A DNA stretch of 64,000 nt from contig NZ_VCEK01000004.1 of NCBI RefSeq assembly GCF_005862235.1, forward strand, positions 124,001-188,000, read 5' to 3'. The notes under the pieces were generated by a model. It made no database searches and was not told the DNA's origin. It saw only the letters and a program-made list of their open reading frames with translations. Within the stretch, counting starts at the first letter, position 1. Each line of letters starts with the position of its first letter. Origin of the DNA: Saccharomonospora piscinae (GTDB taxonomy: Bacteria > Actinomycetota > Actinomycetes > Mycobacteriales > Pseudonocardiaceae). This document shows positions 2,871-31,015 of this stretch, in pieces. The translations under genes and the position numbers were made by a program.

Positions 2871-2966
2871 GCCGTGTCCGCAGGCCCCGTAGCCGTGTCC
2901 GCAGTTCCTGTAGCCGTGTCCGCATCGCACGCGGCGGACACGACTACCCAGGCTGCGGACACGGCT
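2871..2966. repeat. 21-bp-period opposed GTGTCCGCA array (locus 1), proS/yjbQ convergent junction
   Basis: Three copies of GCCGTGTCCGCA start at 2871, 2892 and 2913, exactly 21 bp apart. Two inverted copies follow: an 11-nt GCGGACACGAC at 2934 and TGCGGACACGGC at 2954, in register at 21 bp. The array fills the gap between the stop codons of the convergent genes proS (2847) and yjbQ (2966). It can fold into a long imperfect hairpin with a loop of about 9 nt. The same array recurs near 21.9 kb and 30.3 kb. A bidirectional terminator or protein-binding array is inferred. Confidence 0.85.
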
Positions 2967-21827: not shown

Positions 21828-21926
21828 GTCGTGTCCGAATCTGACGCAGCCCACGTCGTGGAGTTCGCATCCTGCGGACACGGCGACGCAGGCTGCGGAC
21901 ACGGCTACGCAGGCTGCGGACACGGC
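21828..21926. repeat. 21-bp-period GTGTCCGCA array (locus 2), DUF4383/PP2C convergent junction
   Basis: Three perfect copies of TGCGGACACGGC start at 21873, 21894 and 21915, 21 bp apart, with the linker CAGGC shared between units. One recognisable forward copy (GTCGTGTCCGA, 21828) and degenerate remnants form the other arm. The array lies between the convergent stops of the DUF4383 gene (21825) and the PP2C gene (21935). It is the same element as at 2871 and 30235, but its left arm has decayed. Confidence 0.85.
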
Positions 21927-28299: not shown

Positions 28300-30231
28300 A
28301 TGGTGTCGACATCACAACAGCCGACGGTGACCGAGAAGCAGGCACGCCAGGTGGCCGAGGAAGCCAGACAGGGCTGGGACCGGCCCTCCTTCGCGAAGGA
28401 GCTCTACCTCGGGCGGTTCCGGCTCGACCTCGTGCATCCCGAGCCCGCGAGCGGCTCGGTGGAACAGGGGCGGGCCGCGACGTTTTTGGCCCGCCTGCGG
28501 CAGTACTGCGAGACCCTCGATCCCACGATCATCGAGCGGGAGGGCCGGATTCCCGGCACCTACGTCAAGGGACTCGTCGACCTCGGTTGCTTCGGCATCA
28601 AGATCCCGGAGTCCTACGGCGGGCTCGGCCTCGGGCAGGCCGCCTACAACCGCGCGCTGATGCTCGTCGGCTCCGTTCACTCGACGCTGGCGGTGCTGCT
28701 GTCGGCGCACCAGTCCATCGGTGTACCCGAGCCGCTGAAGCTCGCGGGCACACCGGCGCAGCGGGAGACCTACCTGCCGCGTTGCGCGCGGGGCGCGGTG
28801 TCGGCGTTCCTGCTCACCGAACCCGACGTGGGTTCGGACCCGGCCCGGCTCGCCACCACCGCCACGCCCACCGCGGACGGCGCGGCCTACGAACTCGACG
28901 GTGTCAAGTTGTGGACCACCAACGGCGTGGTGGCCGAACTGCTCGTCGTCATGGCGCGGGTTCCGGCGGGCGAAGACCGGCGCGGGGGAGTGACGGCCTT
29001 CGTGGTGGAGGCCGACACCCCCGGGATCACCGTGGAACGCCGCAACGGCTTCATGGGGCTGCGTGGCATCGAGAACGGTGTCACCCGCTTCGACCGGGTC
29101 CGGGTACCCCGCGAGAACGTCATCGGCGAGGAGGGGCAGGGACTCAGGATCGCACTGGCGACACTCAACACCGGCAGGCTCTCCGTTCCCGCTTCCTGCG
29201 CGGGTGCCGCCAAGTGGGCGCTGGGCATCGCGCGCCAGTGGTCGGCGGAGCGCGTGCAGTGGGGCAGGCCGATCGGCGAGCACGAGGCCGTCGCCGGGAA
29301 GATCTCGTTCATCGCGGCGACGGCGTTCGCGCTGGAATCGGTGGTGGAGCTCACCTCCCGCCTCGCCGACGAGGGCCGCCACGACATTCGCATCGAGGCC
29401 GCCCTCGCCAAGCTCTGGGCCAGCGAGATGGCGTGGCTGATCGCCGACGAGCTGGTGCAGATCCGCGGCGGCCGGGGCTACGAGACCGCCGAATCGCTCG
29501 CCGCGCGCGGGGAGCGCGCGGTCCCGGCCGAGCAGCTGCTCCGCGACCTGCGCATCAACCGGATCTTCGAGGGCTCCACGGAGATCATGCACCTGCTCAT
29601 CGCCAGGGAGGCGGTGGACGCCCACCTCGCCGCCGCGGGTGAGCTCGCGGACCCGGACGCCGACCTGCGCGCGAAGCTGCGGGCGGCGGCCGGGGCCAGC
29701 GGCTTCTACGCGCGCTGGCTACCGAGGCTGCTGGCCGGTGCCGGCCTCAACCCGGCGGCGTACCCGGAGTTCGGTGAGCTGGCCCCGCACCTGCGGCAGG
29801 CCGAGCGCCACGCACGCAAGCTCGCCAGGGCCACCTTCTACGGAATGGCACGCTGGCAGGCCCGGCTGGAGCGCAGGCAGGGCTTTCTCGGGCGGGTCGT
29901 GGACATCGGCGCCGAACTGTTCGCCCAGTCGGCGGCCTGCGTGCGCGCGGCGTCGATCCGGGCCGAGGACGAACAGCGGGGCGAGACCGCGGTGGGCCTC
30001 GCCGACGCCTTCTGCCGCCAGTCGAGGCTGCGGGTCGAGCGGCTGTTCGCGGCGCTGTGGACCAACACCGACAGCAGCGACCGCGAGCTGGCGCGCGCGG
30101 TGCTCGACGGCCGGTTCACCTGGCTGGAAGCGGGAGTGCTGGACCCGAGCGAGGGAACCGGGCCGTGGATCGCGGACTGGAGCCCCGGCGCGTCGACCGA
30201 GCCCGACGTGGCCCGCCGCTACGACGGCTAG
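28300..30231 (+). CDS. Acyl-CoA dehydrogenase family protein (long form)
   Basis: The 643-aa flavoenzyme carries the acyl-CoA dehydrogenase signatures LTEPDVGSDPARLATT, WTTNGVVAELLVVMAR and a GGRGYETAESL segment with the expected catalytic Glu. At 643 residues it is about 250 longer than simple members. The extra C-terminal helical part (residues about 430-643) is as in VLCAD-like bacterial FadE proteins. It likely oxidises fatty acyl-CoA in beta-oxidation. The ATG at 28300 follows GGGAGGGG; earlier in-frame starts lack a ribosome site. Its stop touches the third 21-bp array. Confidence 0.9.
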   Translation: MVSTSQQPTVTEKQARQVAEEARQGWDRPSFAKELYLGRFRLDLVHPEPASGSVEQGRAATFLARLRQYCETLDPTIIEREGRIPGTYVKGLVDLGCFGIKIPESYGGLGLGQAAYNRALMLVGSVHSTLAVLLSAHQSIGVPEPLKLAGTPAQRETYLPRCARGAVSAFLLTEPDVGSDPARLATTATPTADGAAYELDGVKLWTTNGVVAELLVVMARVPAGEDRRGGVTAFVVEADTPGITVERRNGFMGLRGIENGVTRFDRVRVPRENVIGEEGQGLRIALATLNTGRLSVPASCAGAAKWALGIARQWSAERVQWGRPIGEHEAVAGKISFIAATAFALESVVELTSRLADEGRHDIRIEAALAKLWASEMAWLIADELVQIRGGRGYETAESLAARGERAVPAEQLLRDLRINRIFEGSTEIMHLLIAREAVDAHLAAAGELADPDADLRAKLRAAAGASGFYARWLPRLLAGAGLNPAAYPEFGELAPHLRQAERHARKLARATFYGMARWQARLERRQGFLGRVVDIGAELFAQSAACVRAASIRAEDEQRGETAVGLADAFCRQSRLRVERLFAALWTNTDSSDRELARAVLDGRFTWLEAGVLDPSEGTGPWIADWSPGASTEPDVARRYDG

Positions 30232-30234
30232 AAC

Positions 30235-30350
30235 ACCGTGTCCGCAGCCTGTGCAGCCGTGTCCGCACTTCCCGTAGTCGTGTCCGCACCGCACGATGCG
30301 AACACGGCTACGTAGGCTGCGGACACGGCTACGTGGGCTGCGGACACGGT
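30235..30350. repeat. 21-bp-period opposed GTGTCCGCA array (locus 3), acyl-CoA dehydrogenase/dedA junction
   Basis: Forward copies of CCGTGTCCGCA-type units start at 30235, 30256 and 30277. Inverted copies TGCG(A/G)ACACGG start at 30297, 30318 and 30339. Every step is 21 bp. The two arms pair into a stem of about 54 bp with mismatches mostly in the linkers. The array begins 3 nt after the acyl-CoA dehydrogenase stop and ends 11 nt before the dedA stop. It is the most symmetric of the three copies. Confidence 0.9.
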
Positions 30351-30361
30351 TGCGGGGGCGG

Positions 30362-31015
30362 TCAGCCTCGGCCGTCGGCCGAGTCCTGCGCGGCGGCGGC
30401 CAGCGCGGCGGCGGCCTTGCGCTTCTTGTAGCGGATGAGGAAGAAGACGCCGACGGCCGCAAGCACGCCCACGACGATCAGGCCGCCGGTGCTGAGCACG
30501 TGTTCCACCCGGCGCGCGGCCTCGCCGAGCGCCGCTCCCAGACTGACGTGCAGCACCGACCAGCAGAAGGCTCCGGACACGGCGGCGGGCAGGAACTTCC
30601 GGTAGGGCAGTCCCGACGTACCCGCCGACGCCGGGGTGAGCGTGCGCACGACCGGCAGGAACCGCGCGAAGAACACCGCCCACGCCCCCCGGCGTTGGAG
30701 GATGCCGGTGGCCTTGTCCCAGGCGTCGGTGCCGTAGCGCTGGATGAGCTTGGTCTCCCGCAGCCGTGGGCCGTACCGGCGGCCGAGGGCATACCCGATC
30801 GAGTCGCCGATACCGGCACAGGCCGTGACGACGAGGACGAGGACCACGAACCGCGGTGCCGTGGTCGCGGTCGTGGCCGCGATGAGCAGCCCCGACTCGC
30901 CGGGGGCGATGAAACCCAGGCCGATCGTGCATTCCAGCAGCACCAGCAGGCCTGTCGCCCCGACGAGGGCCGGTTGCGGCAGGCCTTGCAGCCAGTTGAG
31001 CACGTCGGTTACCAC
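30362..31015 (-). CDS. DedA family (VTT domain) membrane protein
   Basis: The 217-aa protein has the DedA/VTT signatures GFIAPGESGLLIA near residue 35 and FFARFLPVVRTLTPASAG near 115-132, with four or five hydrophobic segments and a Lys-rich C-terminal tail. Relatives act as lipid scramblases or flippases and support proton-motive homeostasis. The GTG at 31015 follows GGGGGAA. It lies downstream of lipA on the same strand with a 143-bp gap that contains a TACCGT -10-like site at 31078-31083. Confidence 0.9.
   Translation of the reverse strand: MVTDVLNWLQGLPQPALVGATGLLVLLECTIGLGFIAPGESGLLIAATTATTAPRFVVLVLVVTACAGIGDSIGYALGRRYGPRLRETKLIQRYGTDAWDKATGILQRRGAWAVFFARFLPVVRTLTPASAGTSGLPYRKFLPAAVSGAFCWSVLHVSLGAALGEAARRVEHVLSTGGLIVVGVLAAVGVFFLIRYKKRKAAAALAAAAQDSADGRG

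Follow-up and report, generated by a model that had tools for sequence, protein, structure and literature searches.

An apparently undescribed family of intergenic 21-bp repeats keeping a possible protein-binding site in a group of actinobacteria

Introduction

What kind of element is built from six copies of a short word at exact 21-bp steps, three forward and then three inverted, and placed between the ends of two genes that run toward each other? The question is raised by positions 30235..30350 of a 64,000-nt stretch of the Saccharomonospora piscinae genome (the whole stretch is hereafter called the window). A sequence-only reading of the window had suggested that a protein might bind such an array repeatedly on one face of the DNA, or that its RNA might form the same hairpin from either strand. 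To better understand the nature of this element, it is important to know how widely it occurs, where it lies relative to genes and which of its parts are conserved. Here, we have examined these aspects in S. piscinae (genome G000) and in other genomes of its genus, family, order and class. On the basis of the current results, the array seems to belong to an intergenic repeat family, as yet undescribed, that keeps a possible protein-binding site and occurs in a group of actinobacteria.

Anatomy of the array and its neighbourhood

A core search of the window placed the three forward cores at 30238..30246, 30259..30267 and 30280..30288 (+ strand) and the three inverted cores at 30297..30305, 30318..30326 and 30339..30347 (- strand), with core-to-core steps of 21, 21, 17 (across the centre), 21 and 21 bp. 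The proposed register of six cores was therefore confirmed: five are exact GTGTCCGCA, and the innermost core of the right arm (30297..30305) is GTGTTCGCA, with one mismatch. The same C-to-T change at position 5 is also found in the innermost cores of several other arrays. Between this core and the innermost core of the left arm (30280..30288) lies an 8-bp centre, CCGCACGA (30289..30296), of the NCGNNCGN type that is common in other mirrored arrays. As a whole, the array is an imperfect palindrome whose inverted arms, 30235-30291 and 30294-30350, are each 57 nt long and 79% complementary.

Gene calls agreed with the proposed distances from the flanking stop codons. On the left, an acyl-CoA dehydrogenase gene (28327..30231, + strand; Pfam PF00441, PF02770 and PF02771; start codon uncertain) ends with a TAG at 30231, 3 nt upstream of the array start at 30235. 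On the right, the stop codon of a gene for a VTT-domain (DedA-type) membrane protein (30362..31015, - strand; PF09335) occupies 30362-30364, 11 nt past the array end at 30350. The suggestion that a hairpin could form from either strand also held, since folding potential was strong on both: compared with dinucleotide shuffles, the predicted RNA fold had an energy of -89.3 kcal/mol (z -10.85) for the + strand and -95.2 kcal/mol (z -11.06) for the - strand.

Two further arrays were found in convergent gaps of the window. The one at 2874..2962 has the order +++--, with one mismatch in one core, and is flanked by a class II tRNA synthetase gene and a UPF0047 gene, whereas the one at 21873..21923 (---, - strand) lies between a DUF4383 gene and a PP2C phosphatase gene and is accompanied by a decayed forward core at 21831.

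Occurrence of the repeat in S. piscinae and other bacteria

The 4.9-Mb genome of S. piscinae contains 599 exact cores (304 and 295 on the two strands) and 321 core pairs at 21 bp (157 and 164), compared with 39 (20 and 19) and 0, respectively, for the reversed pattern. Such counts, far above the controls, indicate that the array is not a product of chance. A three-core pattern searched in named records gave at least 53 stretches among the matches listed: at least 34 in Actinomycetes bacterium DX1.bin91 (a metagenome genome), at least 5 in Saccharomonospora sp. NB11, at least 7 in Sandaracinus sp. NAT131 and at least 7 single records from other taxa. DnaE was 92% identical to that of the window in strain NB11 and 91% identical in DX1.bin91 (over 529 residues only).

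Not all of these records belong to the family. The NAT131 arrays (L010, L020, L035, L042, L044, L045 and L048) have the 9-mer core in common with the family, mostly at a 21-bp step too, and were left out because the exact-core arrays are all unidirectional and have different linkers; these NAT131 arrays carry the word GTGTCCGCAGGAC, and several are located at contig ends. The single records, which come from Dorea, Planctomycetaceae, Prevotellaceae, Oscillatoria, Azoarcus, Streptomyces and Rhodospirillales, resemble unrelated tandem repeats of 21 bp in which the core is contained.

Scans of sequenced genomes showed a narrow and uneven distribution. Exact cores were detected in 8 of 12 genomes of the genus and in none of 49 outside it, and a degenerate core raised the number to 9 of 12, although G006 had only one match per strand. 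The three genomes without arrays (G007, G008 and G011) are placed in the same genus, yet they are distant members because their DnaE is just 68% identical to that of the window. When two mismatches were allowed in 120 genomes of the family, with the reversed pattern as control, four genomes of other genera stood out (G020 with 154 matches, G031 with 129, G095 and G065 with 44 each); the remaining 111 genomes from outside the genus had 0-6 matches, and the reversed control 0-5. Among 397 genomes of the order (a draw that did not include G095 and G065), GTGTYCGCR pairs were found in 26, of which 18 had one or two; those with more than two were the five genus members drawn, G020 (145), G031 (44) and G398 (7). 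None of 118 genomes of the class had more than two matches besides G000, which was the sole family member drawn. Taken together, the family, order and class scans point to a repeat that occurs in a small number of related genera and is patchy within them; its architecture, spelt differently in each lineage, recurs in a handful of other genera in the family and is hardly found elsewhere in the sampled genomes.

In G398, which belongs to another genus, all seven listed core pairs lie within 2.6 kb (L162:9383-12010), around a desaturase/reductase gene, a GMC oxidoreductase gene and a NUDIX gene. This stretch seems to be a segment obtained from a relative that carries arrays. A search of 200 family genomes for a parent operator, in the form of the exact mirrored pair, yielded 11 genomes without known arrays, with 1-3 matches each; none of the eight such array-free genomes listed had the NCGNNCGN centre. 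An apparent replichore bias of the cores was present only among the matches listed and was dropped.

Repeat unit, register and centre

The repeat unit consists of GTGTYCGCR and a 12-bp linker, together 21 bp or two helical turns. In stretches from six genomes, successive same-strand cores no more than 60 bp apart were mostly separated by 21 bp (195 cases), with 10 cases at 42, 3 at 19-20 and 1 at 60. The phase is also kept between opposed cores. In 654 kb of G000, facing cores were 8, 29 and 50 bp apart in 13, 26 and 26 cases, respectively, against 0-4 cases for any other gap up to 59 bp; these counts are not independent because one array can supply several gaps, and a few of the cases at 8 bp look like chance. 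All three peaks correspond to 8 bp plus whole 21-bp units. The same peaks appeared in G001, G009, G020 and G031, and cases were too few to judge in G010, G005, G003, G095 and G398.

The 8-bp centre was NCGNNCGN in 40 of 68 exact mirrored pairs among the matches listed in array-bearing genomes. It predominated among the listed pairs of G000, G003 and G031 (9/10 each) and G002 (5/8) and was less frequent among those of G001 (4/11), G009 (2/10), G005 (2/7) and G095 (0/2); centres ending in AGGC, or others, were common among the listed pairs of G001, G009 and G005. The exact mirrored pair was absent from array-bearing G004 and G065. Innermost cores were frequently GTGTTCGCR. The linker consensus is typical of each lineage, ending in GTAGCC in G000 and in GCACGC in G001 and G009.

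These features bear on two explanations. First, the arrays could be satellites produced by unselected tandem duplication and intergenic by happenstance. Linkers are identical within some arrays, for example across eight units in G003, as such duplication would leave them. However, the exact register is held over unlike linkers, the facing arms are in register, the cores change slowly and the arrays are placed at stop codons (see below). Tandem duplication without selection is disfavoured, and we regard it as quite improbable.

Second, the arrays could be clusters of DnaA boxes that titrate the initiator or control replication. The core is a non-palindromic 9-mer with C or T at position 5 and is identical at 7 of 9 positions to TTGTCCACA, which we take to be the actinobacterial DnaA box; position 5 of that box is also variable. 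On the other hand, TTGTCCACA itself is rare in the G000 genome (22+22 vs 10+7 for the control), a stretch with four exact TTGTCCACA boxes, not identified as oriC, contains no GTGTCCGCA, and many genomes of neighbouring genera have no arrays. Judged by these word counts, a role as DnaA-box clusters would be extremely unlikely. It should be noted that two TTGTCCACA words are located directly beside an array in both G001 (L150:6092-6240) and G009 (L158:5110-5190).

Placement of arrays relative to genes

We then located 91 arrays relative to genes called by a script trained on codon-position GC (not taken from annotation). They came from stretches of nine genomes: G000 (35), G009 (21), G001 (14), G020 and G031 (7 each), G095 (4), G003 (2), G010 (1) and G005 (none). 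One G000 stretch (L133) was dropped because it repeats part of L096. Many stretches had been picked for holding arrays, and none for gene orientation.

Only one array, in G031, was inside a called gene, and this gene call is doubted. The others occupied 40 convergent, 40 co-oriented and 8 divergent gaps, with 2 at stretch edges. A nearly position-blind set of 619 kb of G000 contained 23 arrays, of which 7 were convergent, 11 co-oriented, 3 divergent and 2 at an edge; at some 37 arrays per Mb, about 180 would be present genome-wide by extrapolation. The view that the array belongs between convergent genes was not borne out, and an element restricted to such genes can be rejected. Nevertheless, convergent gaps were just 78 of the 426 gaps in the first 459 kb, so they are over-represented among arrays, yet not exclusive; most of them have no array. 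The two outcomes named beforehand as refuting this view thus diverged: arrays lie inside genes hardly ever, but between co-oriented genes as often as between convergent ones.

What did hold is that arrays are intergenic and lie at the 3' ends of genes. Among the arrays of co-oriented gaps, 36 were closer to the upstream stop codon, 3 to the downstream start codon and 1 was equidistant (sign test, p 3.6e-8). The preference was retained without G009, which has loci in common with G001 (28 to 3, p 4.6e-6), and in G000 alone (16 to 0). In the 25 co-oriented gaps with at least 100 bp free, 21 arrays were no more than 50 bp from the upstream stop, compared with a uniform expectation of 6.1, and none was that close to the downstream start. 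Several G000 arrays even overlap the gene end by 19 bp, with a linker spelling that fits an internal TAG as the stop codon. A coding repeat was ruled out by eye, the linker changes not being codon-like. The 3'-end preference could in part reflect selection against promoter damage.

With regard to architecture, 54 of the 91 arrays are one-armed and 37 two-armed, and the order of blocks is + then - in 32 arrays and - then + in 2. One-armed arrays in co-oriented gaps were sense in 17 cases and antisense in 9, a weak bias at most.

Gain, loss and divergence of arrays

Comparison of orthologous sites revealed that arrays come and go. Among five relatives, G010 is the sole one in which both neighbour genes of the array at 30235..30350 are adjacent; they are convergent there, only 9 bp apart and without an array between them, which indicates that the array is dispensable at that locus. 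The site of the array at 21873 could be compared in four of the five relatives, none of which has an exact array and three of which have apparent decayed cores. G009 and G010 have one array position in common, in a divergent gap. Many arrays lie at the same place in G001 and G009, and two G009 arrays are without a G001 counterpart, a proportion that is not a rate because the stretches were chosen around arrays.

At the loci common to G001 and G009, cores had diverged at 22 of 391 positions (6%) and linkers at 106 of 381 (28%; p 1.7e-17), based on 18 anchored comparisons with short alignments and with both directions pooled, which are not independent because loci are shared. Half the linker rate is a fair null here because anchoring used exact cores. 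Against it, core divergence was still low in the pooled data (p 1.4e-4), and the four subsets gave p values of 0.05, 0.32, 0.01 and 0.11, so mixed that only the pooled tests are clear. At four loci judged by eye to be one-armed in both species, 5 of 132 core and 44 of 157 linker positions differed (p 1.1e-8, or 0.004 against half the linker rate); this comparison omits L158, a split array with two blocks, and L144, whose counterpart is two-armed. In middle units not used as anchors (n=93), identity was 97-99% at core positions 1-4 and 6-8, 96% at position 5 and 86% at position 9. Cores could also be kept constant by the machinery that spreads them, or by arrays exchanging sequence, instead of by a host function.

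The first of these possibilities amounts to a selfish miniature mobile element, similar to a REPIN or MITE, whose cores are kept just for the machinery that spreads it and serve no host function. Gain and loss at orthologous sites, the spelling of linkers and core position 9 by lineage, the patchy occurrence across close genera and a block of about 83 bp that is 93% alike at three places of G031 are all consistent with it; two of these three places adjoin additional sequence of about 90% similarity. However, cores stay while linkers drift at common loci, and filled and empty sites, few in number, compared by eye and with flanks too diverged, revealed neither target duplication nor fixed outer ends. 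Furthermore, the RAYT (Y1 transposase) domain PF01797 was matched in 4 of 12 genus genomes (G000, G003, G004 and the array-free G007) and unmatched in the array-bearing G001, G002, G005, G009 and G010. Its absence from five array-bearers and presence in an array-free genome mean that RAYT does not track the arrays, and a RAYT-driven REP can be ruled out. On balance, a purely selfish element seems doubtful to us.

In G031, a nearly identical array is present in two stretches (L169:10608 and L170:9545) whose sequences are about 90% alike over 0.3-0.7 kb, and the gene beside one of them resembles, by eye, an HNH endonuclease of the DUF222 type. In G009, four ++ arrays, three with the same linker, follow each other at steps of about 3.5 kb (L157:2276-12897), as if a gene and its array had been tandemly duplicated.

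Hairpin or DNA-binding protein

An RNA hairpin, acting through a long transcript stem as a bidirectional terminator or as a 3' stabiliser of mRNA, is suggested by the position of arrays just past stop codons, the predominance of facing blocks and the very stable folds on both strands of 30235..30350. The 3' ends of genes in three genomes agreed with this as far as two-armed arrays are concerned: their median fold z was -4.59 (44 ends), compared with -0.27 for 80 sampled controls. For one-armed arrays, which make up 54 of the 91, the improvement over control was only modest (median z -0.95 for 25 sense and -1.52 for 17 antisense ends), yet such arrays keep their cores. A z below -2 was reached by 86% of two-armed, 36% of one-armed sense, 35% of one-armed antisense and 15% of control ends.

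Other observations argue against the hairpin as the functional form. First, the earlier statement that mismatches fall in linkers while cores are conserved was upheld with one reservation. Cores are kept and the arm mismatches do lie in linkers, but the innermost linkers of opposed arms are no more alike than re-paired ones: in 24 two-armed elements they matched at 7.58 of 12 positions, compared with 7.90 for arms re-paired within the genome (p 0.94). Without such covariation, the stem may be no more than a side effect of mirroring units that have a common consensus. Second, TTTT was found within 14 nt of none of 56 two-armed array edges, which, together with the one-armed majority, excludes a U-tailed intrinsic terminator. 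Third, the majority of sampled convergent gaps have no array, and a polar terminator would not predict the at most weak orientation bias of one-armed arrays. The terminator reading for convergent genes is supported only in part, and we consider an RNA hairpin element a rather unlikely explanation.

Constraint on the cores without pairing, combined with the exact two-turn step, favours a protein on DNA. Judging from the sequences, a protein on one helix face appears to fit better than the hairpin. We therefore prefer, with a probability of about 0.4, the interpretation that the arrays are a dispersed REPIN-like repeat without a REP transposase, whose phased candidate protein sites punctuate gene ends. 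Established parts of this interpretation are the family itself, its phase, its position directly past stop codons, the differences between species through gain and loss of arrays, and the slower change of cores than of linkers. Binding, function and mode of spread are what we infer: a sequence-specific DNA-binding protein would sit on one helix face at each core, rows of cores at gene ends would act as punctuation, either a roadblock or an insulator against read-through, and the transcripts of two-armed copies might additionally form a long hairpin.

A more specific version is that a dedicated protein polymerises on the phased 21-bp sites after stop codons, growing inward from each arm of a two-armed array, and halts or insulates transcription with no RNA hairpin required; as members of a repeat family, the sites would at the same time be spreading and turning over. 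In this complete form, the idea is unlikely.

In any case, our data add a repeat family of unusual build, with direct 21-bp arms that often face each other in register, and it marks the ends of many genes in one actinobacterial clade. If the phased candidate sites are bound by a protein, they would represent a new way of ending or insulating transcription in high-GC bacteria; if the repeat is selfish, it would be an analogue of REPINs that lacks their known transposase.

Comparison with known systems

The sequence-only reading knew of no named element with this form, and none was found in the element libraries searched or among the open-licence papers listed; in particular, we found no description of facing arms of direct 21-bp units in those papers. 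Membership in an Rfam family was rejected: the sole match of covariance models in the window at the gathering threshold was a tRNA, and on the array 30235..30350 two microRNA models matched far below their cut-offs. Thus, the 21-bp arrays are real and are a form of dispersed intergenic repeat not described in the literature searched.

Several known systems resemble them in part. ERIC sequences are imperfect intergenic palindromes of about 100 bp from other bacteria and, unlike the 21-bp arrays, have no internal 21-bp periodicity. The binding sites of BldC differ from the arrays in both sequence and spacing. A REP is a palindrome of 20-40 bp tagged GTAG or CGTC, whereas the 21-bp unit consensus has no internal stem by eye; GTAG occurs in the linker consensus of G000, but not in that of G001 and G009 or of G020, G031 and G095.

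REPINs, REP doublets and BIMEs are described as high-copy, extragenic inverted doublets able to fold as hairpins (PMC3116915, PMC3733652). An inverted pair able to form a hairpin is present in 37 of the 91 arrays and absent from the 54 one-armed ones. The difference is that the arms of the 21-bp arrays are direct repeats at a strict step, the single unit having no stem. Tandem REP arrays of SBW25 have a much longer spacing (PMC3116915).

In marine Beggiatoaceae, the short conserved word TAACTGA forms about 170 sets, each of 2-6 copies and most of them intergenic, which have been reported as candidate binding sites; these direct repeats of a 7-mer mostly lie immediately before start codons, and most have a single orientation (PMC4679880). 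In contrast, the 21-bp arrays have 12-bp linkers, a 21-bp step and often mirrored arms, and they follow stop codons: a position before starts was not found in co-oriented gaps, where 36 arrays were nearer the upstream stop and 3 the downstream start.

BldC of Streptomyces is reported to form head-to-tail multimers on direct repeats, with sites of varying length (PMC5859096). It offers an actinobacterial precedent for direct-repeat binding, and the 21-bp arrays carry no evidence of binding by BldC itself. Of the systems compared, REPINs are the nearest in form, the TAACTGA sets are the nearest as many arrays of a short word, and BldC is the nearest precedent for binding to direct repeats.
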